Positions 2,003-30,573 of a stretch of DNA of 64,000 bases are shown here, piece by piece. The notes below the pieces were generated by a model. The model did not search any database. It worked only from the letters and a program-made list of their open reading frames with translations, and had not been told where the DNA came from. Each line of letters opens with the position of its first letter. The stretch's first letter is position 1. A program made the position numbers and the translations under genes. This DNA is from Candidatus Tepidifontimicrobium thermophilum (GTDB lineage Bacteria; Sysuimicrobiota; Sysuimicrobiia; Sysuimicrobiales; Sysuimicrobiaceae), in NCBI GenBank assembly GCA_031296405.1, contig JAVKKH010000005.1, forward strand, positions 1-64,000, written 5' to 3'.

Positions 2003-3826
2003 CTACCTCCGGCTGGTGACCTGGACGAAGAACGTCCGGCCTGGCGCGGGGTAGCCGCGCAGGGTCTCGTAGCGAGCGTCCAGCAGGTTGTCCACGCCGA
2101 CGCTCACGAGCACGTCGGAAGCCGCCACTTCATAGCGCAGCCCCACGGTCACGTACCCCGGCAGGGTCACCCGGGTCGCGGGGAAGCTGGAGAAGTCCAG
2201 GTCCTCGCGCTCGCCGACGTAGCTGGCCAGCACCACCAGCGCGGCCTCGCCTCCCAGCTCGCGCCGCAGGACCACGTTCGCGGCCCACCGGGGAAGCCGG
2301 AGGAGCGCCAGCCCCGTGGTCCGGTCCACCCCGTCGGTCCACGTCAGGTTGGCCAGGACCTGCCAGCCGTCCGCCGGCGTCCCGCTGAGTTCCAGCGACG
2401 CTCCGGAAACCCGCGCGGAGCCCACATTCTGCGGGTTGCACCCACCCACGATCAGGTTGTGGGCGTCGGTGTAGAAGGTGTTGACCCGCGCCACGAGCGC
2501 CGGCCGCGGTGCGTACTCCAGTCCCAGGTCCGCAGACCAGGCGGACTCGGGCAGCAGGTTCGGGTTGCTGCAACCGGGGAAGTACAGCTCCGCGAACGTG
2601 GGGCCACGGAACGTCCGGCCCACTCCACCCCTCACCCGTAGGGTGTCCGTGACGAAGTGCACGAACCCGACGCGGGGGTTCAGCTGGCCGCCGTACGCGG
2701 AGTGCAGGTCAGCCCGCAGGCCCAGCCCCAGCAGGGTCCGGTCGGACACCGGCACGTCGTACTGCGCGAACGCCGCGCCGACCTGCGCGGTCCCGTCGAA
2801 GCCTCCAAACGTGCTCCTGAAACCATACGCGGCCTGCTGCCACTCCCCGCCTACCGTGAGTACCCCAGCACCCGGGAGCCTGCGCACGTCCTGCCACTCC
2901 GCGCCGTACGCCTGGCCCGAGGCGGACGAGCTGTAGCCTGAGGCGCGGTAGTCCAGGGAGTCCCCGTACCACCACAGCCGCAGCCGCTGCCCCCCTCCGT
3001 CGGCCGCCGTCCGGTCCCACGCCAGCTGCAGCACCGTCCTGCGGTCGGACTGCCGGTCCGGGCACGGGTAACAGAAGCTGTTGGTGGCGCCGGGCACGCC
3101 GTAGCCGGCGTCCGTGTGGTGCACCTGAAACGTCCAGCGCGAGCCCCGCTGCGACTCCACGCCGAGGTGCAACGTCCCGGTCCACCGCGAGGCGTCGCCG
3201 TTGGGCTGGTAGCCGCCGCTGCCGAGGTGTTCGACCCCTACCGCGTACCGCGTGCCTTGGGCCTGTCCGCCCACGCTCAGCGCTGCCAGGGAGTCAGCGG
3301 CTCCCCCGTAGCCCGCCCGCAGGCGCAACCGGTTGGTCGGCCGCGTCACCACGTGGACCACGCCGCCCAGAGCGCCACTCCCCCAGAGGGCCGAGTACGG
3401 GCCCCGCAGCACTTCCACCCGGTCCACCTCCGCCAGGGACAACGTGGCGAGGTTCACCCCCAGCTGCGCGGTGGCGTTGAGCGGGACGCCGTCGAGCAGC
3501 ACCAGCACTTGCTGCGGGCTGCTGCCGCGCACCGAAGGCTGCAACAGCCCCCCGGGGCCACTATAGTTTTCGCGTACGTATACCTCCGCGAGGTAGCGCA
3601 GCGCCTCCCCCACGGTGCGCAGCCCCAGCCTGCGCAGCTGTTCGCCCGAGAGCACGGTGACGTACGCGGGGCTGGAACGGACAGGTTCGGGGCGGCGGCC
3701 TGAAACCACCACCTCTTCGCCCTCGAAGGTCGGGATTTCCTGCGCCCGCGCAGCAAGGGGAATCGTGAGGACAACCCACAAGGTGAGGAAAGCCCGCACG
3801 ACGCGGGCCTGCAAGGAAGGCCTCAT
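2003..3826 (-). CDS. btuB: TonB-dependent outer-membrane receptor, BtuB-like
   Basis: About 607 residues from the ATG that follows GGAGGTGGGAAG; an in-frame codon 21 bp further upstream lacks such a site. A signal peptide (hydrophobic core AFLTLWVVLTIPLA, cleavage near AARAQ) is followed by a TonB-box-like stretch (EEVVVSGR). The plug domain carries typical signatures ('LSGEQLRRLGLRTVGEALRYL', 'QVLVLLDGVPLN', 'VDRVEVLRGPYSALWGSGALGGVV'). A roughly 460-residue beta-barrel then ends in aromatic-rich strands (NLLDARYETLRGYPAPGR). Size and plug motifs match BtuB-type cobalamin receptors. The strongest support for the substrate is the cobalamin riboswitch directly upstream. The downstream tonB completes an uptake pair; the inner-membrane BtuCDF transporter is not in the window. 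Confidence 0.9.
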   Translation of the reverse strand: MRPSLQARVVRAFLTLWVVLTIPLAARAQEIPTFEGEEVVVSGRRPEPVRSSPAYVTVLSGEQLRRLGLRTVGEALRYLAEVYVRENYSGPGGLLQPSVRGSSPQQVLVLLDGVPLNATAQLGVNLATLSLAEVDRVEVLRGPYSALWGSGALGGVVHVVTRPTNRLRLRAGYGGAADSLAALSVGGQAQGTRYAVGVEHLGSGGYQPNGDASRWTGTLHLGVESQRGSRWTFQVHHTDAGYGVPGATNSFCYPCPDRQSDRRTVLQLAWDRTAADGGGQRLRLWWYGDSLDYRASGYSSSASGQAYGAEWQDVRRLPGAGVLTVGGEWQQAAYGFRSTFGGFDGTAQVGAAFAQYDVPVSDRTLLGLGLRADLHSAYGGQLNPRVGFVHFVTDTLRVRGGVGRTFRGPTFAELYFPGCSNPNLLPESAWSADLGLEYAPRPALVARVNTFYTDAHNLIVGGCNPQNVGSARVSGASLELSGTPADGWQVLANLTWTDGVDRTTGLALLRLPRWAANVVLRRELGGEAALVVLASYVGEREDLDFSSFPATRVTLPGYVTVGLRYEVAASDVLVSVGVDNLLDARYETLRGYPAPGRTFFVQVTSRR

Positions 3827-3865
3827 CTTCCCACCTCCGCTTTGCACCCGAAGGGTGTGGGACCG

Positions 3866-4050
3866 CGTGCGGGCAGGTCTTCTGGCTCCGGATCCTCGCC
3901 CTCCCCGCCCTTCCCAGGCCGCCGGCTTGCACCTCTACGGCCCAGTGGGTGGCGCCGGTTGGCGCCTGTGGGTCAGGCTCTCCGTTACAGCGGCGGGAAC
4001 CGCGCCGGATTTGCCCGGACTTCGGGCTGCACCGGACTTCCCTTGGCCCG
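3866..4050 (-). promoter_or_regulatory. Cobalamin (B12) riboswitch upstream of btuB
   Basis: Read on the minus strand, the leader contains, in order, the conserved riboswitch blocks GGGAAGTCCGGTG, AATCCGGCGCGGTTCCCGCC followed by GCTGTAACGG, a B12-box region GCCACCCACTGGG, GGGAAGG, and CCGGAGCCAGAAGACCTGCC. The order and spacing fit the class I cobalamin riboswitch (AdoCbl type). The B12 box carries a few extra bases compared with the canonical GCCACTG. Between the aptamer and the start codon, TCCCAC (3857-3862 on the opposite strand) can pair perfectly with GTGGGA inside the btuB ribosome-binding site (3829-3834). This suggests translational shut-off when B12 is bound. The pairing is inference. 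Confidence 0.9.
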
Positions 4051-4059
4051 CACGCCGTG

Positions 4060-4089
4060 ATTATACGGGCAGCGGTCGGCGGTGTCCAA
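4060..4089 (-). promoter_or_regulatory. Promoter of btuB-tonB
   Basis: On the minus strand TTGGAC (4084-4089) is followed after 18 bp by a perfect TATAAT (4060-4065). It lies just before the riboswitch, so the transcript would begin about 4053 and include the whole aptamer. The TTGGAC box recurs before transketolase. Confidence 0.75.
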
Positions 4090-4125: not shown

Positions 4126-5682
4126 CTACGGGCGGTGCACCAGTACCCAGTCGGACCGCACCACCACGCGGTCCTGAGCGTTCGGGACCAGCTCGCCCGT
4201 CCGCCCCACGTACCAGCCCGGGGGCGCAGACGGGAACTCTGCAGGCGAGATCACCCGCGGAGGACGGTCCAAGCGGAAGCGCAGGGCCAAGTACGGGCAG
4301 GAGTTCTGGCTGAGAGGCTGCCCGGCCACGTACACCACCGCTTCGCCCGCCGGCAAAGCCTTGGCCACGGTCCGCAGGCCCGGCTCCGCATCCCACGGAC
4401 GCAACGCCACGCCGGCCACCGCGTACGCCAGGACCACCGGCCAGAGCACGGAAGACCACGCCGCCTGACGTTCCCCACCACGTACGAGGTTCCCGCAGCG
4501 GACCACGGCCCACGCCACCAGGAGGCTGAGGGCCGCTGCGGGCAGGCGCAGCTGCAGCGGCGCTGGGAGGAGTCCTGCGGCGGCCACCGGCCCCCCGAAC
4601 GCCAGCAAGCCGCCGAGGACGCGGCACAGCACCGCGCTCAGGCTCTCCGCGGTACGAAAACCACCCCCGCCCGTGACCCACCCCGCCACGAGCAGCGCTG
4701 CGGGCAGGACCAGGGGGAGCGCGTAGTGGTCCGTCTTGGTCCGCATGGCGGTGATGGCGGTGAAGTACACCGCGGCAAACCCCACCGACCACTCCGCGGT
4801 CCGGTCTTTCGCCCGCGCCGCACCCCAGCCCGCCACCAGGGCTGCGGGAAGGAGAGGCCACCAGGGCAAGAAGCGCCACAGGGCGCTCACCAGGTAAAAC
4901 GCTGGACCCAGGGGGCTTTCCGCGGCGATCCCTTGCGCGGCCAGGCGGAACAGGAACACCCCGAAGTGGACGTCGACAAACTTCTGTCCGAACTCCCGCC
5001 AGACGAGCCCGTACCACGCGGCGGCGGGCAGGATGCCGGGGATTGCCCGCGCAAGGAAGCCTGACCGCAGCAGTTCTTCCCGGTGCCGCACCGCGTACGG
5101 AAGCGTGGCCAGCACGAACAGCGCCGCCAGCGGGCCCTTGGCCAGGGCCGCCACGCCCAGGCCCGAGCCTGCGACCCAGCCCCACCTCTCTCCTTCCGCC
5201 GCCCGCAGCAGGCCCACCACCAGTCCCAGAAGCCCCACGAAGGCCACGAGGTCCGTCATCACCATGTGCTGTAGCTGGACGTACAGGAGCGTGGTGGCCA
5301 GCGTGGACGCGGCTACGAAGCGGAAGGCTGCGGTCTGCGGTATTCCCCACCACACGGCGAAGGGCACCGCCGCGCCCAGCAGCAGCACCGGCAGGCGGGC
5401 CTGCACGTCGCCCACGCCGAAAAACCGGAAGGAGGCCGCCACCAGCCACATCAGCAGCGGCGGCTTGTCCAGGGGCGGGGTGCCGTCGTACCGGGGGACC
5501 AGGAAATCGCCGCTTTCTAGCATCCCGCGGGCCATGTGCGCGTAGTACGCCTCGTCGCACCCTTGGAGACTGCTGGCCCAGACCCCCGACAGCGTGACCA
5601 TTGCCACCAAAATACCCAGGGCGGCAAGGTGGCCGCGGGGCACCGCCGCGGTCACACCGATCCCGCGAAAACTCGCCAGCAC
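4126..5682 (-). CDS. ArnT/PMT-type GT-C membrane glycosyltransferase (copy 1)
   Basis: 518 residues, GTG start 3 bp after the DUF3084 stop. The first transmembrane helix (residues about 19-36) is followed by the GT-C catalytic loop 'GCDEAYYAHMARGMLESGDF' with the acidic pair used by lipid-linked glycosyltransferases. The characteristic 'RYDGTPPLDKPPLLMWL' loop, about ten more hydrophobic helices and a short periplasmic C-terminal part follow. The pattern is that of the ArnT/dolichyl-phosphate-mannose-protein mannosyltransferase superfamily, which moves a sugar from polyprenyl phosphate onto lipid A or protein in the periplasm. A second copy and a DPM1-like donor synthase lie just upstream in the same run, and the lipid A export genes precede them. 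That makes lipid A or another envelope glycolipid the likely acceptor. The transferred sugar cannot be read from sequence. Confidence 0.8.
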   Translation of the reverse strand: MLASFRGIGVTAAVPRGHLAALGILVAMVTLSGVWASSLQGCDEAYYAHMARGMLESGDFLVPRYDGTPPLDKPPLLMWLVAASFRFFGVGDVQARLPVLLLGAAVPFAVWWGIPQTAAFRFVAASTLATTLLYVQLQHMVMTDLVAFVGLLGLVVGLLRAAEGERWGWVAGSGLGVAALAKGPLAALFVLATLPYAVRHREELLRSGFLARAIPGILPAAAWYGLVWREFGQKFVDVHFGVFLFRLAAQGIAAESPLGPAFYLVSALWRFLPWWPLLPAALVAGWGAARAKDRTAEWSVGFAAVYFTAITAMRTKTDHYALPLVLPAALLVAGWVTGGGGFRTAESLSAVLCRVLGGLLAFGGPVAAAGLLPAPLQLRLPAAALSLLVAWAVVRCGNLVRGGERQAAWSSVLWPVVLAYAVAGVALRPWDAEPGLRTVAKALPAGEAVVYVAGQPLSQNSCPYLALRFRLDRPPRVISPAEFPSAPPGWYVGRTGELVPNAQDRVVVRSDWVLVHRP

Positions 5683-5685
5683 GGG

Positions 5686-6600
5686 CTACGGGACGTCGAA
5701 CCCCACCAGCAACGGCCCCACGGTGTACGCGTCCTGCAGGGCCACCGCGCGGACCCGGAGCCCCGCGGCACCGGAACGCTCCACGCGGTCGGTGGCGCGG
5801 CGCGCGGAGTCCAGGTCCAGGACCACGAAGGCCGGGCCGGCCACCCGCTGGCCAGGTGCGGAAAGTACCTTCCCCTGCGCCGTGCGGATCGCTCCTCCCG
5901 CCAGGGCCAGCACGGCCTCCCGGATCGCCTCGCGGGGCCCGGGGCGCAGGACCGCCTCCGCGAGCACCTGCCCGCGCCGGAAGACCAGGTCGTTGTTCAC
6001 CACCTGCACGGTGACCGGGACCGGAGAGCCTGCCAGCACGTTCTTGGTACTCACCAGCCGCACCACGACCTCCCGCCGCCGCTGGACCACGATGCGCTCG
6101 ATGGCCTCCCACGACAGGCCCGGGGGGTCCGGCAGGAGGACGTTGCCTGACGGATCGCGTCCGGCCCCCTGGGAGGTGACGAACTCCACCGCCTCCTGGC
6201 GGATCCGGAAGAACCCCCGCCGCACCTCGTCCAGGCCCCGCCGGCCGTCCAGCAAGCCCCGGGCCACTTCCTGACCCCGCAGCACCGCGATGTCGCCCTG
6301 CTCCAGTGCCCGGATCTCTGCCCGCAGCAGCTCCGCCCTGGCCTCCAGGGAACGGAGGGTCTCCCGCAGCTCGAACAGCGCCACCCGCGCGTCCCGGGAA
6401 AACGCCAGCACCGCCCCGACGGTCACCAGGTTGATCAGGACACCCGTGACGACGCTGACGATCTGGGCGGTGGTCCGTGGCCGGAGGCCGAACAGGCTCA
6501 GTCGGTTCTTGCCCACGCGCCGGCCCACCGCGTTTCCGGCCCACGCGATGAGCCCGCTGGCCACCACCAGCACCGGGATCAGCAGGAAGCCGACGTCCAC
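5686..6600 (-). CDS. DUF3084 membrane protein
   Basis: 304 residues from GTG. Two N-terminal membrane helices (residues about 4-24 and 46-67) flank a 'GRRVGKNRLSLFGLRPR' cytoplasmic loop. A coiled coil (about 75-105, LRETLRSLEARAELLRAEIRALE) leads into a mixed domain with 'VQVVNNDLVFRRGQVLAEAVL'. This arrangement matches DUF3084 proteins of cyanobacteria, Deinococcus and diderm Firmicutes, whose biochemical role is not established. It sits between the DPM1-like enzyme and the first GT-C enzyme, 3 bp from the latter, so a role in envelope glycolipid assembly is plausible but unproven. Confidence 0.75.
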   Translation of the reverse strand: MDVGFLLIPVLVVASGLIAWAGNAVGRRVGKNRLSLFGLRPRTTAQIVSVVTGVLINLVTVGAVLAFSRDARVALFELRETLRSLEARAELLRAEIRALEQGDIAVLRGQEVARGLLDGRRGLDEVRRGFFRIRQEAVEFVTSQGAGRDPSGNVLLPDPPGLSWEAIERIVVQRRREVVVRLVSTKNVLAGSPVPVTVQVVNNDLVFRRGQVLAEAVLRPGPREAIREAVLALAGGAIRTAQGKVLSAPGQRVAGPAFVVLDLDSARRATDRVERSGAAGLRVRAVALQDAYTVGPLLVGFDVP

Positions 6601-6692
6601 CCCGCCCGCCTACGCGCCGAAGTCCGCGCTGGCCGGGCCGCGGCCCGGCCGCCGTCCACCTCAGGATACAGGGGCTCGGCCGCCGCGCCCAC

Positions 6693-7379
6693 TCAGCGCC
6701 GTGCCGAGTGCAGGCGCCACAGCAGCCGCAGGTAGTTCCACACCTCGCCCGCACCCAGCTTGCTGCGCCCGCCCCGGCGGTCGGTGAACACGTAAGCCAC
6801 TTCCACCACGGACCGTCCCCGGTTGCGCACGAGCACCTCCAGGAGGATTTTGTACCCGATCCCCTCCAGGGACGGGTCCAGGAGCAGCTCCCGGCGGGCC
6901 GCGAAGAAGCCCGAAACCGGGTCACTCACGCGCTCGCGGAGCCACAGCCGCGCCAGGGCCACCGCTACCCGGCTCATCAGGCGGCGCCGCCACGGCCAGT
7001 CCCGCACCCCGCCACCGGGGACGTACCGCGACCCCACCGCCAGCTCCGCGCCCGACCGGAGCGCGTCCACCAGCTCCGGCACCACCTCCGGCGGGTGCGA
7101 CAGGTCCGCGTCCATCACCACCACCCACCGCCCGGAGGCCGCCCGGGCGCCCTCCAGCACCGCGCTGCCCAACCCCAGTTTGCCGGGCCGCTGCAGCACC
7201 CGGACCGGGTACTGCCGGCCGAGCTCCCGTGCCAGCTCCGCGGTCCCGTCGGGCGAGCTGTCGTCCACCACGACCACCTCGTAACCGCTGCCCAGCGCCT
7301 GGTGCAGCCGGCCGACGAGCTCGGACAGAGTTTCGCGCTCGTTGTAGGTAGGAACTACGACGGAAACCTCTACGGACAC
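6693..7379 (-). CDS. DPM1-like polyprenol-phosphate glycosyltransferase (GT2)
   Basis: 228 residues from GTG, overlapping the preceding GT-C gene by 10 bp. The GT-A nucleotide-binding start 'VEVSVVVPTYNERETL' and 'VVVDDSSPDGTAELAREL', the metal-binding 'VVMDADLSHPPEVVPEL', and the late 'DPVSGFFAARRELL' and 'DRRGGRSKLG' motifs are those of dolichol/polyprenol monophosphomannose synthases. There is no C-terminal membrane domain, as in the soluble DPM1 class. It would charge polyprenyl phosphate with a hexose (mannose in characterised members) to supply the two GT-C enzymes beside it. The reading frame stays open upstream, but that part only mirrors the neighbouring gene. Confidence 0.85.
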   Translation of the reverse strand: MSVEVSVVVPTYNERETLSELVGRLHQALGSGYEVVVVDDSSPDGTAELARELGRQYPVRVLQRPGKLGLGSAVLEGARAASGRWVVVMDADLSHPPEVVPELVDALRSGAELAVGSRYVPGGGVRDWPWRRRLMSRVAVALARLWLRERVSDPVSGFFAARRELLLDPSLEGIGYKILLEVLVRNRGRSVVEVAYVFTDRRGGRSKLGAGEVWNYLRLLWRLHSARR

Positions 7380-8950
7380 CGCACCACCCGCCCCTCGGGT
7401 TTCTCCAGGACCTTCCAGCCCCGGAGTTCCTGGAGCGTCCTGAACCCGTCCACCGCTGGCCGCAGCTCCTGCAAGCGCGCCTGGGGCGCCACCAGCACCA
7501 CCCGCCGGGCTCCTGCGGCGCACACCTCCCGCCGGACCGGCTCGGGGTCCAGGTACGCCCGCCAAGTGCGGCCCGAGTAGAAGACCAGGCTGTTGGGGAC
7601 CCAGTACGCCACCCGCACCTCGTCCCCCCGCGTCCACGCGGCCGCGGCGTGAGCGACCTCGCGGTGGGGCCGGTGGCGGTCCACCTCCGGCATCACCTGC
7701 CAGGCGAGCAGCAGGAAGAACGCGACAGCTCCTGAAGCCAGGGCCGTCACCGCGGCGCCGGTGTTGCCCCGCAGGCCGAAGGCCGCCCCTCCCAGCACGC
7801 CGGCGCCGAAAACCAACAGGGGAACCGCCACCACGGGGAACACCGCCCGCGACTCCGCCGGGTACAGCCACAGGCCGTACGCCGCCACCGCGGCGCAGAA
7901 AAGCACCCAAAGCCCGGCGAGGGCCGCAAACCCCCACCGGAGCTTTCCGGGCCGGTCCCAGAACGCGTCCAGCGCCGCGCCCGTGGCCACCGCGGCCAGG
8001 GGGTAGAAAGCCAGCACGTAGTTAGGCAGCTTGGTGCCCGCAGCGCTGAAGAAAACGAACACCACCGCGCACCACACCAGCGGCATTGGCTCGCCACCTC
8101 TCCGGAACAGGTGGGGCCACGCAAGCCACAGGGCGTTCCACGGAAGCCCGCCCAGCAGGAGGACGGGCACGTAGTACCAGAGCGGTCCTGCCTGGTTCTC
8201 CACCACCCCCACGAACCGGTGCACCGTGTAGTAGCCCAGCACCGACCTCAGAAACGGCGCGCCGTGCCGCAGGTAGCCTGCTGCGTACCAGCTCAGGCCT
8301 ACGAGCCCGTACAGCGCCAGGCCCGCGGCCCAGGGGATCTCCCGCAGCCTGCGCAGCTCGCGCCGCCACGCCAGGTACGCCAGAGCCGCAAGGCCGGGCA
8401 GGACAGCGGCCACCGGGCCCTTGGTCAGGGTGCCTAGACCCGCGCAGACGAACGCGGCCAGGTAACCGGTCCGCCTGCCCCGGTAACCGGTCCAGAAACC
8501 CAGCAGCGTCCCCAGCATCCAGAAGACGAGGACGCTGTCGAACACCGCCAGGCGGGACTGCGCGAACCACTGCAACGTCGTGGCCACCACCAACCCGGCC
8601 AGCCAGCCCGCCCGCGGCGAGAACCACGCGCGGCCCAGCAGGGCGGTCAGCGCCACCGCGCCCGCGCCGAAGACCGCGGACCACACCCGCGCGGTGAACT
8701 CCGTCAGGCCGAAAAACCGTGCCGTGGCCGCGACCAGCCAGAAGTACAGGGGCGGGTGGACGAACCACGGGTCGCCGTTCCAGCGCAGGGTCAGCCAGTC
8801 GCCCGTCCACAGGATTTCCCGGGCGACCTGCGCGTACTTGGTCTCGTCCTGGTCCCACAGCTTCGACGCGCCCAGCCCGGCCAGGTTCAGCGCCAGGGTG
8901 CCGGCCACCACCGCCAGGTACGGCCACCACTCGTGGAGACGGTTCCACAC
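7370..8950 (-). CDS. ArnT/PMT-type GT-C membrane glycosyltransferase (copy 2)
   Basis: About 526 residues if GTG at 8950 is used; that start sits directly before the first membrane helix (EWWPYLAVVAGTLALNLAGL). An ATG at 9085 would add 45 residues and overlap lptF/G by 61 bp. The product has the catalytic loop 'LWDQDETKYAQVAREILWTG', the 'RWNGDPWFVHPPLYFWL' loop and about eleven hydrophobic helices, with a periplasmic C-terminal domain. It is clearly the same family as the copy at 4126-5682 but well diverged, which suggests two acceptor positions or two sugars. It is placed directly after the LPS-export permease. Confidence 0.8.
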   Translation of the reverse strand: MWNRLHEWWPYLAVVAGTLALNLAGLGASKLWDQDETKYAQVAREILWTGDWLTLRWNGDPWFVHPPLYFWLVAATARFFGLTEFTARVWSAVFGAGAVALTALLGRAWFSPRAGWLAGLVVATTLQWFAQSRLAVFDSVLVFWMLGTLLGFWTGYRGRRTGYLAAFVCAGLGTLTKGPVAAVLPGLAALAYLAWRRELRRLREIPWAAGLALYGLVGLSWYAAGYLRHGAPFLRSVLGYYTVHRFVGVVENQAGPLWYYVPVLLLGGLPWNALWLAWPHLFRRGGEPMPLVWCAVVFVFFSAAGTKLPNYVLAFYPLAAVATGAALDAFWDRPGKLRWGFAALAGLWVLFCAAVAAYGLWLYPAESRAVFPVVAVPLLVFGAGVLGGAAFGLRGNTGAAVTALASGAVAFFLLLAWQVMPEVDRHRPHREVAHAAAAWTRGDEVRVAYWVPNSLVFYSGRTWRAYLDPEPVRREVCAAGARRVVLVAPQARLQELRPAVDGFRTLQELRGWKVLEKPEGRVVRCP

Positions 8951-9024: not shown

Positions 9025-10170
9025 CTACCGGTGCCGCCAAACGATCCACGCACCGCAGGCCGTGGCCAGCAGGTTGGGTGTCCATGCAGCCAACCACGGC
9101 GGCATCCGTCCCGCCTGCCCCAGCAGGGTGGTGGCGGTGATCAGCACGTAGTAGGTGAGGATGGCCACGACGGCCAGTCCGAAGCCCATACCCCGCCGGC
9201 CCGCTTCCCGTCGCGCCACCGCCAGCCCCACCCCGAGGACGGAGAAGGCCAGCGCGGCCGCGGGCAGCGCGAACTTGCCGTGCCAGTCCACCTCCAGCCC
9301 GCGCGTGGGCTGCCCGGACCTGCGGCGCCGCTCCACCTCTGCCCTGATCTCCCACGTGCTCATCTCCCCCGAACTGCGCGCCGGCGGGGCGATCTCCGCG
9401 GGCGTCCTGGGGATGCGCAGGAGCATGCGCTGGAACTCGCTCAGCACAGCGCCCTCTTCCACGGAAACCATGCGGCCCCGCTCGAAGGACCAGCCCTGCT
9501 CGGTCCACCGGGCGCGCTCGGCCTCCACCACCCGCACCACCCGCCCGTCCCGCTGCTCCTGGACCGTCACGCCCTCCAGGGTCCCGGCCTCCAGGTCCAG
9601 CCGGTCCGCGGCCACCACCAGCACCGCGCCCTCGGGCGTCCGCTCCCGGAACAGGATTCCGTGGCGGACGGAGCTGCGGACCGCCGACGCCCCCACCCGC
9701 GGCAGGACGTCGATGTACCGCTGGGCGGCCGCGGGGACCAGCACCTCGCCCACCCAGAAAGTGACCACGGTGGCGGCTGCGCCCAGCACCACCGCCGGCA
9801 CGGCGATGCGGGCCAGGCTCACGCCCCCGGTCTGCATGGCCTCCAGCTCCCGGGCCTCCCGCAGGCGGCCGTACGCGAGGATCGTTCCCAGCAGGGTGGC
9901 CATGGGCACGCAGAAGAACAGGACGTACGGGGTGCGGTAGGCGAGCAGCTCCAGCAGCACCTCCGCGGGGACACCCCGGTCCATGAGCAGGCGGCCCAGG
10001 TAGAAGAACTCGTTGCCCACCAGCAGGGCCCCGAACACCGCCAGGCCGAAGCCCACCGCGGCCAGCAGTTCCGCGCCCACGTAGCGGTCCAGAAGGGTGG
10101 GCCAGGGCTTCCACCGGGCGGTACCTGACGCGGTCACCGCGGCGTCCAGGGATCTCGGACGGCTGTCCAT
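9025..10170 (-). CDS. LptF/LptG-family LPS export permease
   Basis: 381 residues, ATG start. Family features are an N-terminal 'LLDRYVGAELLAAVGFGLAVF' helix, 'LAYRTPYVLFFCVPMATLLGTILAYGRL' with the charged coupling segment 'REARELEAMQTGGVS', a central periplasmic beta-jellyroll (about 150-270), and three C-terminal helices. In E. coli LptF and LptG form a heterodimer driven by LptB. Only one permease is present here, so it may act as a homodimer, as proposed for some non-proteobacterial diderms, or the partner may lie elsewhere. The gene lies 1 bp after lptB. Confidence 0.9.
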   Translation of the reverse strand: MDSRPRSLDAAVTASGTARWKPWPTLLDRYVGAELLAAVGFGLAVFGALLVGNEFFYLGRLLMDRGVPAEVLLELLAYRTPYVLFFCVPMATLLGTILAYGRLREARELEAMQTGGVSLARIAVPAVVLGAAATVVTFWVGEVLVPAAAQRYIDVLPRVGASAVRSSVRHGILFRERTPEGAVLVVAADRLDLEAGTLEGVTVQEQRDGRVVRVVEAERARWTEQGWSFERGRMVSVEEGAVLSEFQRMLLRIPRTPAEIAPPARSSGEMSTWEIRAEVERRRRSGQPTRGLEVDWHGKFALPAAALAFSVLGVGLAVARREAGRRGMGFGLAVVAILTYYVLITATTLLGQAGRMPPWLAAWTPNLLATACGAWIVWRHR

Positions 10171-10171
10171 C

Positions 10172-10918
10172 TCACATCCGGAACCGCTCGCCCAGGTAGA
10201 AACGCCGGGCCTCCTCGCTGCGGAGCAGGTCCTCGGAGGTTCCCTCCAGCAGCACCCGGCCCTCGTACAGGATCAGGGCGCGGTCGGTGATGGTCAGGGT
10301 GTCCCGCACGTTGTGGTCGGAGACCAGGATCCCGATCCCCTGGGCCCGCAGGTAGGCGATCATGTCCTGGATGTCCTCGATGGACTTGGGATCCACACCG
10401 GTAAAGGGTTCGTCCAGGAGGAGGAACCGCGGGCGGATGGCCAGGGCCCGTGCGATCTCCACCCTCCGCCGTTCGCCGCCCGAGAGGGTGTAGGCGGGCT
10501 GGTCCCGGAGGTGCGAAAGGTGGAACTCCTCCAGCAGCGCCCGCACCCGCTCCTCCCGGTCCGCTTTCCCGAGGCCCTGCTGCTCCAGGATCAGCTCCAG
10601 GTTCTCCGCCACCGTGAGCTTGCGGAACACCGAGGGCTCCTGCGCCAGGTAGTGGATCCCCGCCCGGGCCCGCAGGTGCACCGGGAGGTGGGTGATCCGC
10701 CGGCCGCCCAGGTACACCTCGCCCGCGTTGGGCCGGACCAGGCCCACGATCATGTAGAAGGACGTGGTCTTTCCCGCGCCGTTGGGCCCCAGCAGGCCAA
10801 CCACTTCCCCAGGCCGCAGGGTGAGGGTCACCCCGTCCACCACCGCGCGGCGGCCGTACCGCTTCACGAGCCCCTCCGCACGGAGCACGCCGTCGGTCAG
10901 CTCAAGGGTGGACGACAA
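10172..10918 (-). CDS. lptB: LPS export ABC transporter ATPase LptB
   Basis: 248 residues using the TTG start preceded by GGGAGGTCTCGGG; the reading frame extends upstream but only through lptA sequence. Walker A 'GLLGPNGAGKTTSFYMIVGL', the Q-loop 'YLAQEPSVFRKLT', signature 'LSGGERRRVEIARALA', Walker B 'FLLLDEPFTGVDP' and the H-loop 'ILVSDHNVRDTL' are all intact. The sequence 'PSVFRKLTVAENL' and 'DHNVRDTL' are typical of LptB rather than other ABC ATPases. It powers lipopolysaccharide extraction from the inner membrane and overlaps lptA by 17 bp. Confidence 0.93.
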   Translation of the reverse strand: MSSTLELTDGVLRAEGLVKRYGRRAVVDGVTLTLRPGEVVGLLGPNGAGKTTSFYMIVGLVRPNAGEVYLGGRRITHLPVHLRARAGIHYLAQEPSVFRKLTVAENLELILEQQGLGKADREERVRALLEEFHLSHLRDQPAYTLSGGERRRVEIARALAIRPRFLLLDEPFTGVDPKSIEDIQDMIAYLRAQGIGILVSDHNVRDTLTITDRALILYEGRVLLEGTSEDLLRSEEARRFYLGERFRM

Positions 10919-11702
10919 CCCGAGACCTCCCGGTAGCCGCCAGAACCCCGCGCTCCCAGGCGTAGCGCACCTCGTCCGCCCGCAACTCGTCCGTACCCCG
11001 CCGGGCCACCACCTGGCCCCGGAGGATGGCCACACGCTCCCGCCACAGCACTTCCGCCTCGTGCCCTCGGGCCACCCCCTCCGGGTCTTCAAGGCGCACT
11101 CCGCCCTCGGCCTTCAACACCTGCGCCCGGAGGTCCGCCCGCATCGCACCTGCCACAAGCCGGACCTCGCGCCACCTGACCACGGGGTCCCCCGAGGCCA
11201 CGGCCACCTCCGCCCCACCGTCCACGAGGACTTCCTGCGCCTCCAGCCCCGCGTCCGCCCAGCTCACCCGCGCCCCGCCTGACGCCCGAGCCGTGCGCCG
11301 GCCGAAGTCCACGTGGGCCCTCGGCGCGGCCAGGCGCACCGTGCCCTGACCCGTGAGGTAGGCGGCGTGTACGCCGCCGTCCAGCACCGCCCGCCCCTCC
11401 CGCACGGAACCCTCTGCCCGGTCCGCCCGCACCTCCAGCTCCGCCCCGCGCTGCACCCGGACGCCTCCGGTGGCCTCGAACTCGCCCTGCCGGGCCCGGT
11501 ACCGGACCGTACGGGCCTCCACCACCAGGTCGCCCCTCCGGATCCGAACCGGATCGCCCTCCAACCACCAGGTGTCGGACGCCGCCTCGTACGTGGCCCG
11601 CAGCGCGTCCTCCACCTCCACCGCCTGCGCCCACGCCGACCACGGCCAGGCCGCCAGCAGCACCGCCGCGGCCCCCCACACCAGCCACCGGGCGGGCCTC
11701 AC
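10902..11702 (-). CDS. lptA: LptA/OstA-like periplasmic LPS transport protein
   Basis: 266 residues from GTG, whose GTGA overlaps the lptC stop. A signal peptide (WLVWGAAAVLLAAWPWSAWAQA) is followed by repeated beta-strand units in which aromatic/charged 'DGGVHAAYLTGQGTVRL', 'ARASGGARVSWADAGLEAQEV' and 'ADEVRYAWERGVLAATG' alternate. This is the jellyroll bridge pattern of the OstA/LptA family. It is longer than E. coli LptA (185 residues), so it may contain more jellyroll turns or substitute for part of LptD's N-terminal domain. No lptD is in the window. Confidence 0.85.
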   Translation of the reverse strand: MRPARWLVWGAAAVLLAAWPWSAWAQAVEVEDALRATYEAASDTWWLEGDPVRIRRGDLVVEARTVRYRARQGEFEATGGVRVQRGAELEVRADRAEGSVREGRAVLDGGVHAAYLTGQGTVRLAAPRAHVDFGRRTARASGGARVSWADAGLEAQEVLVDGGAEVAVASGDPVVRWREVRLVAGAMRADLRAQVLKAEGGVRLEDPEGVARGHEAEVLWRERVAILRGQVVARRGTDELRADEVRYAWERGVLAATGRSRVVVHP

Positions 11703-12247
11703 TGTCGGTCCCCCGCGATCACGTGCACGGCGCCGTGTAGCCGCGCGCGACGCAGGGCCGGCTCTGACTCCAGCCAACCGGCGGACACCGTCCACCCGTC
11801 CCAGCGCAGGCGCACGCCGCCCGTGGCCACCAGCAGATCCTCCGCCGGCTGGTACGTGACCCGCTCCGCCACCATCCACCGGCCCTCGCCCGCCACCACC
11901 CGGACTTCGCGTTCCAGCTCCACACGGTTGTCGCCCCGGCGGTAGGTGACCCTCCCGGCCTCCACCTGCACCCGCGTGCCGTCCTCGGCGATCAGATAGC
12001 CCCGGGGCTGTCGCGCGGTCACCCTCCGCTGCCGGTCCACCAGCACGGAGGGTGCACGCAGCTCCCACCGCACGCGGCCGCGGGCGTCCGTACCCACCAA
12101 TCGCGTGCCCTCTACCTCCAGGAAAGCGTCCCGCGGTGGCGCCGACGCCGCCGAAGGGGGCGGCGCGGCAGGCCGGCCGCAACCCGTCAGAAGCCAGGCC
12201 ACGGCCGCCGCGGCCGCCAGCCGGACGCGCCTGTCATGGTACGCCAT
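11699..12247 (-). CDS. lptC: LptC-like lipoprotein of the LPS bridge
   Basis: About 182 residues from the ATG (MAYHDRR) 14 bp inside lpxB; earlier in-frame TTG/GTG codons are less likely. The N terminus has a lipobox (AWLLTGC), so the protein is probably lipid-anchored rather than held by the transmembrane helix of E. coli LptC. Beta-jellyroll sequence follows (RVRWELRAPSVLVDRQRRVT, VEAGRVTYRRGDNRVELEREV, VAERVTYQPAEDLLVATGGV). The lptC-lptA-lptB-lptF/G order is the standard transport module. Confidence 0.85.
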   Translation of the reverse strand: MAYHDRRVRLAAAAAVAWLLTGCGRPAAPPPSAASAPPRDAFLEVEGTRLVGTDARGRVRWELRAPSVLVDRQRRVTARQPRGYLIAEDGTRVQVEAGRVTYRRGDNRVELEREVRVVAGEGRWMVAERVTYQPAEDLLVATGGVRLRWDGWTVSAGWLESEPALRRARLHGAVHVIAGDRQ

Positions 12248-13439
12248 GAGTCCTGCAGCCACCAAATGCCAGCACCCGCGCCACCTCCTGGGCCGCGCGG
12301 TCGGCCGCTCCCGGAGGGCCCAGGGCCTGCGCCACCGTCCGCAGCTGCCGGCGCACCTCCTCGGCCCTCGCAGGGTCGCTCAGTAGCTCCTGCAACGCGT
12401 CGGCCAGCGCCTCCGGCCGGCAGTCCCCCTGCAAAAGCTCCCGGAGCACCGGACGCCCGGCCATCAGGTTGGGCAGGCTGACCCAGGGCACGGTGGCCAC
12501 CCGCCGCGCGATCCACTCCGTGGGCCTGGACACCCGGTACAACACCACCGCAGGTGTACCGAGCACCGCGGCTTCCAGGGTGGCGGTCCCGGAGGCCACG
12601 GCCGCAGCCCGTGCGTGTGCGAGGAGGTCGTGGGTCCGGCCCACCGGCGCCGGTACCTGCATCCCACAGCGCCGGAGGATCTCCCTCACCGCCGGCCGCA
12701 GAGGTTCCGAGGCCACCGCCACCGCCGCCTGCACGGCCAGACCCCGTTCGCGCAGCAGGCGGTAGGCAGCCAGCTGCACCGGGAGCAGGCTGCGCACTTC
12801 CTGCAGCCGGCTTCCCGGAAGCAAGGCGAGCAGGGGCACTCCAGGCTGCAGCCCCAGCTGCTCCCACAGACGGTCCCGCGGGACACTGGATCCCACCAGG
12901 TCCGCCGCGGGGTGGCCTACGAACACCACGTCCGCGCCCGCGGCGCGGTAAGCCTCGTACTCGAAGGGGAAGGTAGCCAGCACCTTTACGGGCAGGCCTG
13001 CCAGAACCCTGGCCCGCTGACCCTTCCGCCCGTAGGTCATAGGCGGGAAGTAGTACACGGTCGGTACCGACCGGCAGGTGGCTTTGGCCACCCGCACGTT
13101 GAAACCCGGGAAGTCCACCAGAACCAGCACGTCCGGCCTCAGCTCCCGCAGCAGGCCCAGGACCCGGCGGAACCGGAGGGCGAACAGGGGAATGCGGACG
13201 TACGCCTCTAAGTACCCCACCACTGCCCAGTCCGAAGTGTCGAGCACCAGCCGCACGCCCGCTTCCGCCATCCGCGGGCCCCCGGCTCCCACCAGCTCCA
13301 CTTCGGGCAAAAGCCACCCCAGGGCCTTGGCCAGGTGCGCGGCCTGGACGTCCCCGGACGCTTCCCCCGCCAGCAGGAAAACCCGGCCTGTGCGGCTTTC
13401 CCCCCGGGCGGGAACCACAGACTGCGCCTGAACGCTCAC
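12234..13439 (-). CDS. lpxB: Lipid-A-disaccharide synthase LpxB
   Basis: 401 residues. Signature motifs include the N-terminal 'FLLAGEASGDVQAAHLAKAL', 'ELVGAGGPRMAEAG', 'LVLVDFPGFNVRVAK', 'VPTVYYFPPMTYGRKGQRA', 'FVGHPAADLV', 'LLALLPGSRLQEV' and 'VASGTATLEAAVLGTPAVVLYR'. This GT19 enzyme joins UDP-2,3-diacylglucosamine and lipid X to form the tetra-acyl disaccharide. 'YYFPPMTYG' replaces the more usual 'YYISPQVWAW', a modest divergence near the active site. It overlaps lpxI by 4 bp and lptC by 14 bp. Confidence 0.93.
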   Translation of the reverse strand: MSVQAQSVVPARGESRTGRVFLLAGEASGDVQAAHLAKALGWLLPEVELVGAGGPRMAEAGVRLVLDTSDWAVVGYLEAYVRIPLFALRFRRVLGLLRELRPDVLVLVDFPGFNVRVAKATCRSVPTVYYFPPMTYGRKGQRARVLAGLPVKVLATFPFEYEAYRAAGADVVFVGHPAADLVGSSVPRDRLWEQLGLQPGVPLLALLPGSRLQEVRSLLPVQLAAYRLLRERGLAVQAAVAVASEPLRPAVREILRRCGMQVPAPVGRTHDLLAHARAAAVASGTATLEAAVLGTPAVVLYRVSRPTEWIARRVATVPWVSLPNLMAGRPVLRELLQGDCRPEALADALQELLSDPARAEEVRRQLRTVAQALGPPGAADRAAQEVARVLAFGGCRTHGVP

Positions 13440-14227
13440 GGGGTCAACCCGACCACAGCAAGGTCCAGCTGCCGGGCTGCAGCGCGGAGCGCGGGTAGGT
13501 CCAGCAGCAGGGTGGCCCCCGCCTCGACGCCCAGGGCGGTGGCGCCTGCCTCACGCATGGCGGCCAGGGTCTCGGGCCCCACCACGGGAGGGTCGAACCC
13601 GGGGTCGCCCTGTGGCCACGCCACCTTCACCACCACCGCGCCCGGCCCGAAGGCCGAGCACCTCCGGACCATCGCGTCCGTGCCCTCGGCGGCCTCTGCT
13701 GCCAGCACCACGCCGTCGCGCACTGCCACCGCCTGCCCCACACCCGCCGCAGCCACTAACCTGGCCACCCGGAAGCCCAGCGCCAGGTCGTCCCGTTCCC
13801 GCTGTGTGGGCGCACGGCCCGCCACCGGTCCCTCTTGGGCCACCAGGTCCGGGACCAACGCCGCGGGCGCCAACACGGAAAAGCCCCGGTCCTCCAGCAG
13901 GCGCCGCACCGCCCGCCACAACTCGGGGTCGCGGCCGTCCCGCCGGCCCGCCAGCTCCCTGACCCCGGCCGCGCCGCGCAACGCCTGCAGTTTGTCCACC
14001 TTCCCCGCCATCACCAGCTCTCGAACCCGCTCCTCCTCGAACACCTTGAGGGCGTCCAGAGCCCTCGCCACGGGCACCGACTCGTGACGGTCACACAGCT
14101 CCTCCAGCTGCGCGGGATCTCCGTCGAGCTGAACGCACACGACCCGACGCCCACCCGCCCGCAGGCGCCGTGCCAGTTCGCGGGGCAGCGCTCCCGCGCC
14201 CGCCACAAGGCCCACCGGTGGAGTCAC
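13436..14227 (-). CDS. lpxI: UDP-2,3-diacylglucosamine pyrophosphatase LpxI
   Basis: 263 residues, in the operon between lpxA and lpxB. Family (formerly DUF1009) motifs: 'VGLVAGAGALPRELARRL', 'LDALKVFEEERVRELVMAGKV', 'LVAQEGPVAGRAPTQRERDDL', 'GQAVAVRDGVVLAAEAAEGTDAM' and the C-terminal 'ALGVEAGATLLLDLPALRA'. LpxI makes lipid X and UMP from UDP-2,3-diacylglucosamine and replaces LpxH in many non-enterobacterial lineages. No LpxH-type metallophosphatase was seen here. Confidence 0.92.
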   Translation of the reverse strand: MTPPVGLVAGAGALPRELARRLRAGGRRVVCVQLDGDPAQLEELCDRHESVPVARALDALKVFEEERVRELVMAGKVDKLQALRGAAGVRELAGRRDGRDPELWRAVRRLLEDRGFSVLAPAALVPDLVAQEGPVAGRAPTQRERDDLALGFRVARLVAAAGVGQAVAVRDGVVLAAEAAEGTDAMVRRCSAFGPGAVVVKVAWPQGDPGFDPPVVGPETLAAMREAGATALGVEAGATLLLDLPALRAAARQLDLAVVGLTP

Positions 14228-15501: not shown

Positions 15502-16305
15502 TCACCCGCTCAAGCCGGCCAGCGCCCGGGCCAGCGCCACGTGCGTCCCGTGACCGGCTCCCACCGCCACCACGTGTGCCCGCAGCTCCGCCCCGAGCAG
15601 CGCCAGGTCTCCGAGCAGGTCCACCACCTTGTGCCGGGCCGGCTCGTCCGCAAACCTGGGACGGTTGCGGTAGCCGCCGGCTTCCAGCACCAGGGTGTTG
15701 GACTCCGACGCCCCGAGGGCCAGCCCCTGGGCCCACAGGCCGCCCGCCTCCTCCGCATAGCCCCACGTGCGGGCGGGCGCCAGTTCCCGTTCGAAGGACT
15801 CCTCGTCCACCTGTACGTCCACCGCCTGCGCCGGTCGGTCCCGCAGCGGCACCACGTAAGTCACCCGCAGCCCGGCAGACGGGAGCGCCGCGCACAACCG
15901 GTCTCCGTCCGTGACCCAGACCGGTTCTCGGACCGCCACGACAGGTCGCTCTGCGTCCAGGTCCCGGGTCCCCACCCGTCGCACGGCGTTCCAGAAAGGC
16001 AGGGCACTGCCGTCGCCAGCCGGTACCTCCCCTCCTTCCACCACCAGCTCGCCGGCGGTGACCCCGGCCACCCACAGCGCCGCCAGCAGGTGCTCCACGG
16101 TCAACACCCCGGCCACCTGCGTCCGCCGCTCCGTCGAGTCTACCGCCCGCACCCCCAGCACCACGGTAGCTTCTCCAGTGCGCAGGACCAACCCCGGCAG
16201 CTCCCGCGGCAGGATCCGGACCCGGCACGGTTTGCCGGTGTGGATCCCGACACCCTGGACCTCCACGGGCCGGACCAGGGTCCGGTGCTTCAACGAGCCC
16301 TCCAC
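15502..16305 (-). CDS. lpxC: UDP-3-O-acyl-GlcNAc deacetylase LpxC
   Basis: 267 residues, shorter than the usual about 300, starting with GTG that overlaps the end of the upstream unknown gene by 16 bp. Zinc ligands are visible as His72 (LTVEHLLAAL, with Glu71), His225 and Asp229 (HKVVDLLGD). The catalytic His lies in 'GAGHGTH' (His252). The N-terminal 'RPVEVQGVGIHTGKPCRVRI' is typical. The shortening appears to come from trimmed insert regions; all active-site residues are present. LpxC carries out the zinc-dependent deacetylation that commits substrate to lipid A. Confidence 0.93.
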   Translation of the reverse strand: MEGSLKHRTLVRPVEVQGVGIHTGKPCRVRILPRELPGLVLRTGEATVVLGVRAVDSTERRTQVAGVLTVEHLLAALWVAGVTAGELVVEGGEVPAGDGSALPFWNAVRRVGTRDLDAERPVVAVREPVWVTDGDRLCAALPSAGLRVTYVVPLRDRPAQAVDVQVDEESFERELAPARTWGYAEEAGGLWAQGLALGASESNTLVLEAGGYRNRPRFADEPARHKVVDLLGDLALLGAELRAHVVAVGAGHGTHVALARALAGLSG

Positions 16306-18059
16306 ACCAGCCGCACCGGGTACCAGGAGGCCGCCTCAGGCACGGTCACGAGCTCCACCGCGCGCACCTCACGCGGCGCGAGGGTTGCCGCTAGGACCTG
16401 AGCGCTCCGCCCGGCGGCCACGAACTTCAGGTCCACCAGCTGCCCGTCCACGAGGAAAGTGGCGTAGGCGGGACCGGAGGAGGCCACCAGCACCAGCTCC
16501 ACGTCCGCCGGCCGGTCCGTGGGGTTGTGCAGGAGCAGGCGCAGCCGGTAGGTCACCCCGTAGTCGCCCTCCAGCAGGGTACCGGTCCGGAGATCCCGCA
16601 GCTGCCGACTCCGGCCGATCTCCGTCTGCCACTCTTCTCCCACCACCAGCGTGGCCTCCGCCTCCACCAGGGGAGGGCCAAACACCCCGCGCGGGTGAGC
16701 CTTGTCGTCCGGTTCGACCTCCCAACGTACGGCCCGGTCCAGCACGTAAACCGTCCGCACGCTCACGGACACCTCGAGGGGACCTCCCTCGAGGACCTGC
16801 ACCTGCAGCAGCCCGGAGACCACGTACCCGGGGGGAGTCCGCTGGGTGGTGAACCGGTGCTCGCCCCGGGCCGGGATCTCCAGCACGTACCCAGCCCCGC
16901 GGCCGAGGAGTTCCAGGAACCGGCGCGCCGCCGCGTGCCCCACGCCCATGGTGTCGTGCCACGCACCGGGTGCCGCCAGCTGCATGTGGACTTTGGCGGG
17001 GCGGCTGTTGGGGTTGCGCAGCCACACGGTCACCACCTTGTCCCGGCCCGCTCCGTTGCTGTGGTGGTACAGCATTCGGACCGACTCCCCTGAATTCACC
17101 ACCTCCCGGAACAGGACTCCGTCCGCGGCGATCCGCTCCGGGTTGTTGCTGACCAGCAGCCGCGAGGGTGGCGCCAGTTCCATCACCTGGTTCCGAACCG
17201 TCACCGGGACTCGCCCCTCCACCGGTAGGGCGAACGGACTGCGGATGCGCACCGGGACCCCGCCCCGCCACACCTCGCCCGGCCGGAGGGGAGGCGGTTC
17301 GAACGCACCCACCTCCAGGAAGGCGCCGGGTCCGGTCCGTGCTGCGCGTTCCAGCGACCGCAGTGCCGCCTCCCGCACCACGTCCGCGGACGCCACGTCC
17401 CCGGTCACCACCGCCTCCACTTGCTCCGGGAGCTGCCCGCTCAGGGGCCGGACCCACACCCGCAGTTCCCGCTGGCTCGGCCCGTAGCGCAGCGGGACCC
17501 TTACCGTCCCCGCCGTCCGTCCCACAACCCGCAGCTGCTGCGGCCCGGCCCACTGCAACTCCACAACCCGCGGGTCGTAGGGCCCCACCTCAGGCCGGCC
17601 GGGCGGGATTGTGCGGATCTCTACCAGCCCGCTCCCGCCCACGGGGAGCACGAGGGCCGGGGTGGCCACGGTCAACCGCCGGACTGAGAGGGCTGCGTGG
17701 AGGCGCTGTGCCCACTGGGAAGCCAGCGCGGACGGGGACGTCCGGTTGGCCCGGGCCTCGGCCGGGTCCGCGGCCACGACCCTCCGGCCCGACACGTACA
17801 CGTCCACGGACCCGCTGGCCGGGACGATTTCCACAGTCCGGGCCGCCGCAGGGAGGGCGCGTAGCCGGTCCGCCACCTGCCGGGCCCGCGCCGCGGCGCC
17901 GGGGCCCCGGAGTCGGAGGACCAGCCGCCCGTTCACCCACACCGCCCACGCGGGGCCTTCCGCGGCCACCTCCACTGCCGGTCCGGAGGCCGCAGGCCCC
18001 GGGGAGCCTCCCAACAGCGCGACCAGCATCGCTGCAGCGACCAGGGTTCGGACGCGCAT
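16290..18059 (-). CDS. Unknown exported protein encoded inside the lipid A operon
   Basis: 589 residues with a clear signal peptide (VRTLVAAAMLVALLGGSPGPAASG). I do not recognise a family. The body is rich in beta-strand-like sequence. It begins with a segment that looks like a peptide-processing or secretin-associated small domain (about 30-110), and later regions read like tandem immunoglobulin-like strands: 'VVTVWLRNPNSRPAKVHMQL' and 'RLRLLLHNPTDRPADVELVL' are two copies of the same 'xLxNPxxRPAxVxxxL' pattern about 160 residues apart. No lipobox and no membrane anchor follow the signal, so it is probably periplasmic. It is translationally coupled to lpxC and 9 bp from lpxD, which argues for an envelope role tied to lipid A or surface assembly. 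No function is assigned. Confidence 0.7.
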   Translation of the reverse strand: MRVRTLVAAAMLVALLGGSPGPAASGPAVEVAAEGPAWAVWVNGRLVLRLRGPGAAARARQVADRLRALPAAARTVEIVPASGSVDVYVSGRRVVAADPAEARANRTSPSALASQWAQRLHAALSVRRLTVATPALVLPVGGSGLVEIRTIPPGRPEVGPYDPRVVELQWAGPQQLRVVGRTAGTVRVPLRYGPSQRELRVWVRPLSGQLPEQVEAVVTGDVASADVVREAALRSLERAARTGPGAFLEVGAFEPPPLRPGEVWRGGVPVRIRSPFALPVEGRVPVTVRNQVMELAPPSRLLVSNNPERIAADGVLFREVVNSGESVRMLYHHSNGAGRDKVVTVWLRNPNSRPAKVHMQLAAPGAWHDTMGVGHAAARRFLELLGRGAGYVLEIPARGEHRFTTQRTPPGYVVSGLLQVQVLEGGPLEVSVSVRTVYVLDRAVRWEVEPDDKAHPRGVFGPPLVEAEATLVVGEEWQTEIGRSRQLRDLRTGTLLEGDYGVTYRLRLLLHNPTDRPADVELVLVASSGPAYATFLVDGQLVDLKFVAAGRSAQVLAATLAPREVRAVELVTVPEAASWYPVRLVWRAR

Positions 18060-30465: not shown

Positions 30466-30573
30466 GCGGTGCACCTCGGTACGAGTCTACGACCCATCCT
30501 ATCAGAGAGCCCCAAGGCCGCGACTTGCTTGCGGGGGTGTAAGCGTGGGGAGTCGGACGGATGGCCCGGCCGG

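Follow-up and report, generated by a model that had tools for sequence, protein, structure and literature searches.

The window analysed here, a stretch of 64,000 nucleotides from Candidatus Tepidifontimicrobium thermophilum, includes the end part of an lpx-lpt operon; the host is a diderm placed in the CSP1-3/Sysuimicrobiota clade. In this end part, an ArnT-fold glycosyltransferase of the GT-C fold class (GTC1) and a DPM-type polyprenyl-phosphate-hexose synthase (DPM) are encoded between lptF, the anchor gene of the locus, and the gene of a DUF3084 protein, which is followed by a second, diverged GT-C enzyme (GTC2). The features are given below in the order of transcription.

Upstream of lpxI, minus strand, in transcription order: tamB-like, bamA, ompH-like (its OmpH match is below the cut-off), lpxD, a 589-aa gene, lpxC and lpxA
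13436-14227, minus strand: lpxI, by Pfam/profile family
12234-13439, minus strand: lpxB, by Pfam/profile family
11699-12265, minus strand: lptC, by Pfam/profile family
10902-11702, minus strand: lptA, by Pfam/profile family
10172-11092, minus strand: lptB, by Pfam/profile family
9025-10170, minus strand: lptF, lipopolysaccharide (LPS) export permease of the LptF/LptG type (PF03739, 3.6e-76)
7370-8950, minus strand: GTC1, ArnT-fold GT-C glycosyltransferase of 526 aa with a GTG start (PF02366, PMT, 5.3e-20; PF13231, PMT_2, 5.3e-15)
6693-7379, minus strand: DPM, GT2 polyprenyl-phosphate-hexose synthase of 228 aa (PF00535, 2.2e-37)
5686-6600, minus strand: DUF3084 protein of 304 aa (PF11283, 6.3e-27)
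4126-5682, minus strand: GTC2, second ArnT-like GT-C enzyme of 518 aa (PF13231, PMT_2, 2.5e-10)
3855-4066, minus strand: cobalamin riboswitch of the next gene (RF00174, 69.5 bits)
2003-3847, minus strand: TonB-dependent receptor after the riboswitch

The open reading frames of GTC1, DPM, DUF3084 and GTC2 are intact and lie on one strand with lptF, with gaps of 74 bases between lptF and GTC1, −10 (an overlap) between GTC1 and DPM, 92 between DPM and DUF3084, and 3 between DUF3084 and GTC2. The cobalamin riboswitch likely marks where the operon ends downstream. A preliminary description had placed two GT-C enzymes, a DPM-type synthase and DUF3084 after the Lpt genes, and both the positions and the Pfam families agree with it; the combination of an ArnT-type enzyme and a DPM-type donor synthase closing the lpx-lpt operon is supported too.

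In a phmmer search against the PDB, ArnT was the sole match of GTC1 at E<=1 (5ezm, 1.7e-28), and no Pmt sequence was matched at this threshold by either GTC1 or GTC2. The AlphaFold model of GTC1, built from 12 sequences with a pLDDT (predicted local distance difference test) of 88.8, matched ArnT 5f15 with a Foldseek value of 1.9e-20 and a VIA Z of 40.2 (3.7 Å, 501 residues aligned). This match covers the whole length of the protein, with both the GT-C membrane part and the C-terminal periplasmic domain. Pmt4 was the second fold match, with a VIA Z of 28.3 over 346 residues, the other Pmt4 rows scoring lower. The clustering with protein O-mannosyltransferases that the preliminary description had named as contrary evidence was not found for GTC1, ArnT being its best match by sequence and by fold.

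Arg270 of ArnT, as well as Glu84 and Lys85, are residues which we take to have roles in that enzyme. Compared with E. coli ArnT, the residues D35/E36, D138, K177 and R245 of GTC1 correspond to D55/E56, D158, K203 and R270, and all of them recur in the aligned GTC1 sequences from families f1-f6. According to the available text of PMC7801869, D55/E56, D158, K203 and H267 are active-site or ligand residues of ArnT. GTC1 is a relative of ArnT, not ArnT itself.

Of the 43 genomes of the phylum, 37 were compared at this locus: DUF3084 had led to 34 of them and lptF to the other 3. LptF/G was over the cut-off in 40 of these 43 and DUF3084 in 34. Outside the 37, six assemblies have no main lpt locus: G001, G013 and G014 gave another lptF paralogue only, G012 and G019 gave no lptF match, and the match of G028 was below the cut-off. 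Among the 36 loci showing lptF, the next gene was GTC1 in 28, DPM in 4 and DUF3084 in 4. As GTC1 stands directly behind lptF in 28 of them, spread over seven families of the order, this adjacency is not due to chance. Overall, GTC1 was found in 29/37 loci (including a fragment in G030), DPM in 23/37, GTC2 in 3/37 and DUF3084 in 34/37, this last frequency being biased, since 34 of the 37 genomes were picked by it. Nineteen loci combine GTC1 with DPM, 7 hold GTC1 without DPM, 4 DPM without GTC1 and 4 neither, while 3 are cut before DPM. Wherever present in these loci, GTC1 lies between lptF and DUF3084. The sugar genes are a frequent but variable insert between these two genes.

Among DUF3084 loci with a name, the most similar are those of Armatimonadetes SKYB51 (84%) and Bacterium HR32 (76%). 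Armatimonadetes CSP1-3 also belongs to this set, the group now called Sysuimicrobiota in the available text of PMC11604079, and the placement of the host is taken from these names. That text reports enrichments of the group and contains none of six envelope terms looked for.

The DUF3084 protein scored 93.8 bits with PF11283, whose cut-off is 25. Its model (pLDDT 85.6) begins with two helices, continues in a long one and ends in an alpha/beta part; the best-conserved stretch of the protein is an Arg-rich segment round the turn that joins helices one and two. No solved structure was matched by the model at E<=0.001; the best VIA Z was 6.2 over 82 residues, from which nothing was concluded. In 4 loci (G015, G040, G041 and G042), DUF3084 stands directly behind lptF without GTC1 and DPM, and in 4 further loci holding DPM only it is also kept behind lptF. 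The profile additionally matches the Synechococcus, Thermus and Deinobacterium controls. The apparent loss of DUF3084 in G024, G025 and G026 was set aside, as their contigs end 6, 0 and 13 bases past the last GTC1 match, and the lptF search brought up no other main locus whose end is intact and which lacks DUF3084. In G005, the gene is on the opposite strand. A scaffold for the sugar enzymes was rejected as its main role, given the 4 loci that hold none of the sugar genes, the 4 with DPM only and the matches in the three controls. DUF3084 would thus go with the conserved Lpt genes of the locus rather than with its sugar genes. The available text of PMC5007114 gives DUF3084, as COG4372, as one of three unknown genes in the outer-membrane cluster of diderm Firmicutes. 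Its presence in such clusters is already published; what is new here is its constancy beside lptF regardless of the sugar genes.

The DPM protein matched the dolichol-phosphate mannose synthase of Pyrococcus (PfDPMS, type III; 5mlz) at 3e-67 over 222 residues. D90, D92, H95, R118, R132, S136 and K177, invariant in 12 DPM proteins of the locus, correspond to Asp89, Asp91, His94, Arg117, Arg131, Ser135 and Lys178 of PfDPMS. In the available text of PMC5526996, Asp89, His94, Arg117 and Lys178 lie near the mannose, Asp91 is a metal/phosphate ligand, and the acceptor phosphate has Ser135, Arg117 and Arg131 beside it. E. coli ArnC has an Asn at the place of the DPM His. The DPM protein stops after the catalytic part, and a 228-aa enzyme without membrane helices fits because the membrane part of PfDPMS is described as expendable in the same text. 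These residues would speak for a neutral, mannose-like hexose, which favours the neutral sugar of the preliminary description. A DPM-like synthase (E<=1e-55) was found elsewhere in 10 of the 11 genomes without a linked DPM versus 4 of the 23 with one (Fisher p 7e-5, kinship uncorrected), and the contrast holds inside families f1 and f5. It looks as if the donor supply had been replaced.

Concerning the acceptor, neither WaaA (PF04413) nor LpxL (PF03279) was over the cut-off in any of 21 genomes, and LpxK (PF02606) was over it in 1 of 43 (G014), only by summing pieces in one frame. KdsB was over the cut-off in 2 of 43 genomes (G011 and G018), the window's own not among them. The WaaA, LpxK and LpxL models matched E. 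coli, Caulobacter and Bacteroides, used as positive controls, and control matches were obtained for KdsB as well. The window's own genome gave no PF04413, PF02606 or PF03279 match at E<=0.001; its assembly (2.44 Mb) is 94.8% complete, so the statement rests mainly on the relatives. Two sub-cut-off LpxK matches that were checked proved to be a MoeA/MobB and a P-loop protein. The weak WaaA matches in G004 and G002 were discarded as LpxB-like proteins. LpxB-like proteins of two relatives (L046:1180-2316 and L047:826-1857) score well below the LpxB equivalog cut-off and are possibly other glycosyltransferases.

Because WaaA, LpxK and LpxL are undetected in the relatives, the lipid A is probably free of 3-deoxy-D-manno-oct-2-ulosonic acid (Kdo) and made by LpxA, LpxC, LpxD, LpxI and LpxB alone. 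The apparent absence of these three enzymes, which the preliminary description had overlooked, alters what kind of acceptor is to be expected. LPS without Kdo, heptose and lipid A phosphate is described for cyanobacteria in the available text of PMC4390846. The GT-C enzyme at the end of the lpt genes would be a candidate for adding the first sugar to a Kdo-free lipid A.

Taken together, we consider it reasonably probable that GTC1 and the polyprenyl-phosphate-hexose synthase add a sugar to a Kdo-free lipid A on the periplasmic side, ahead of its export by Lpt. In such a pathway, LpxA, LpxC, LpxD, LpxI and LpxB would make a lipid A without Kdo or 4'-phosphate, and on the cytoplasmic side DPM would charge polyprenyl phosphate with a hexose, most likely mannose, drawn from a nucleotide sugar. 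A flippase would then turn over the polyprenyl-phosphate-hexose, GTC1 would transfer the hexose onto lipid A at the periplasmic face, and the Lpt bridge would export the glycosylated lipid A. GTC2 may add a further, genus-specific modification. A bolder version, which we put forward tentatively and regard as doubtful, is that the GT-C enzyme and the polyprenyl-phosphate-hexose take the place of the cytoplasmic Kdo transferase. The first sugar on lipid A would then be a neutral hexose, added from the periplasmic face shortly before Lpt export and linking lipid A to the remaining surface glycan. If lipid A is glycosylated as proposed, the way in which these bacteria decorate their surface would be an unusual one. 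The Kdo-free lipid A of cyanobacteria is documented, the attachment of sugars to it being left unexplained in the available accounts, and the conserved order lptF-(GT-C)-(DPM)-DUF3084 in a phylum without detectable WaaA offers a concrete candidate enzyme for this attachment. It also points to DUF3084 as a partner of the Lpt machine, not of the sugar enzymes.

Several observations weigh against glycosylation of lipid A by GTC1. In the alignment with E. coli ArnT, and in the pairing with C. metallidurans ArnT read from the PDB sequence match, the Glu84-Lys85 dyad is replaced by Val64-His65, and the metal residues His265/His267 are not kept (Tyr/Thr instead). The comparison of the two active sites with ArnT, proposed as a check in the preliminary description, gives agreement in part: both GT-C enzymes have the equivalents of the Asp-Glu motif, D158 and K203, but the dyad is altered in both and GTC1 is without the two His. 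GTC1 scored 132.3 bits on the NCBIfam ArnT equivalog, far below the cut-off of 567. In family f7, the 7 lpt-linked GTC1 copies (G018 and G034-G039; loci L017 and L079-L084) have lost the His motif, HPP being changed to GPPP/GPAP-like letters, and the copy of G018, the row shown in full, has Arg at K177; the unlinked relatives within f7 keep HPP. Relatives of GTC1 also occur away from lpt genes (G012, G015 and G018), and GTC1 is missing from 8 of the 37 loci. No flippase was found in the locus. The bifunctional GDP-mannose synthase TIGR01479 was over the cut-off in 0/21 genomes and the GDP-mannose dehydratase TIGR01472 in 5/21, the window's own not among them; these missing matches speak against mannose, or reflect a gap of the models. 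Finally, the pattern of linked and unlinked DPM is confounded by family.

The strongest rival is a three-component system acting on another glycan, in which GTC1 decorates an O-chain or exopolysaccharide linked to polyprenyl diphosphate and not lipid A. A polyprenyl-phosphate-sugar synthase, a flippase and a GT-C enzyme acting on O antigen after polymerisation form a published scheme (PMC11127046, in the text available), and several non-lpt DPM-like genes share contigs with other PMT_2 genes (G004:C7, G010:C22 and G017:C41). However, the conserved neighbours of GTC1 in 29 loci are genes of lipid A synthesis, Lpt and DUF3084, and its model matches ArnT, including the C-terminal domain, best by far; we regard this explanation as unlikely. 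The absence of GTC1 from 8 loci and of DPM from 11 of the 34 loci with an intact end, together with the GTC1 relatives living elsewhere, would also suit sugar genes that are passengers of a stable outer-membrane cluster, the function of GTC1 not being bound to Lpt. The constant place between lptF and DUF3084, the tight spacing and the gene overlap in the window make such a passenger role rather improbable. As for modification of exported proteins by the DPM-GTC1 pair, i.e. protein O-mannosylation, it is suggested by the PMT and PMT_2 Pfam families of GTC1 and by the presence of a DPM-type donor synthase. Considering that GTC1 matched no PDB sequence apart from ArnT, that the fold match to Pmt4 is much shorter and weaker than that to ArnT, and that GTC1 is linked to lpt genes, we give it only a slight chance.

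GTC2 matched ArnT 5ezm at 8.4e-10, more weakly than GTC1, and reached 50.8 bits on the ArnT equivalog against the same cut-off. It keeps DE, D and K at the places of ArnT D55/E56, D158 and K203, with Asp-Lys at that of Glu84-Lys85. In this locus it is present only within the genus of the window (3 of 37), so that the two positions or the two different sugars proposed in the preliminary description find no support as a general pattern. A tree was made of 21 further PMT_2 proteins, picked by hand, together with all GTC1 rows except that of G006 (17 of 18), and it speaks for these proteins only. In it, GTC1 (17 rows, 99/99) and GTC2 (3 rows, 100/100) were placed apart, and the view of GTC2 as a recent copy of GTC1 was rejected on this ground. 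GTC2 grouped with E. coli ArnT there (91/85), but this grouping came with a long-branch warning and was left out of account.

Among known systems, ArnT resembles GTC1 in its fold over the whole length, in the conserved residues given above, in the adjoining polyprenyl-phosphate donor synthase and in the association with lipid A genes. It differs in the dyad and His residues and in the equivalog score; moreover, no arnA/B/D genes lie beside GTC1, and the donor synthase is of the DPM and not the ArnC type. The DPM protein shares the conserved donor-contact residues of dolichol-phosphate mannose synthases (Pyrococcus DPMS and eukaryotic DPM1) but lacks the archaeal enzyme's membrane helices, and its sugar is a predicted one. 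The outer-membrane cluster of Negativicutes and Halanaerobiales (PMC5007114) likewise brings together lpx, lpt, bamA, tamB, Skp/OmpH-like and DUF3084/COG4372 genes; according to the available text, lpxK, waaM, waaA and kds genes are also part of that cluster, the GT-C/DPM pair being unmentioned there. The four-enzyme pathway of Cyanobacteria and Dictyoglomi, as given in the part of PMC3087551 at hand, also has LpxA, C, D and B without LpxK, WaaA and LpxL, whereas the Sysuimicrobiota locus adds LpxI and the GT-C/DPM pair in the operon. By the description available in PMC4688374, the Francisella glycosyltransferase genes flmF2 and flmK are similarly tied to a sugar of lipid A, galactosamine; there, however, the sugar is another one, the nine lipid A enzymes of E. 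coli are present and the phosphates are removed afterwards. No paper on Bdellovibrio with ArnT was found in the literature.

Many relatives carry a second LptF/G gene elsewhere (e.g. L104:5284-10254 of G005, L096 and L103), whereas a search of the window's genome gave no such gene. Behind the G005 copy come an LptA/LptC-like gene and the gene of a 739-aa protein that matches LptD weakly. The protein of 28690-30474 (minus strand), adjoining the TamB-like gene, has a sub-cut-off match to the SpoIVB S55 peptidase. The 589-aa protein beside lpxC (16290-18059, minus strand) has no Pfam match over the cut-off, DUF3370 being matched below it only, and its homologues lie near lpxC in several relatives. 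The TonB-dependent receptor of 2003-3847 would be BtuB-like, a name taken from the cobalamin riboswitch, and such a receptor also follows the cluster in many relatives.

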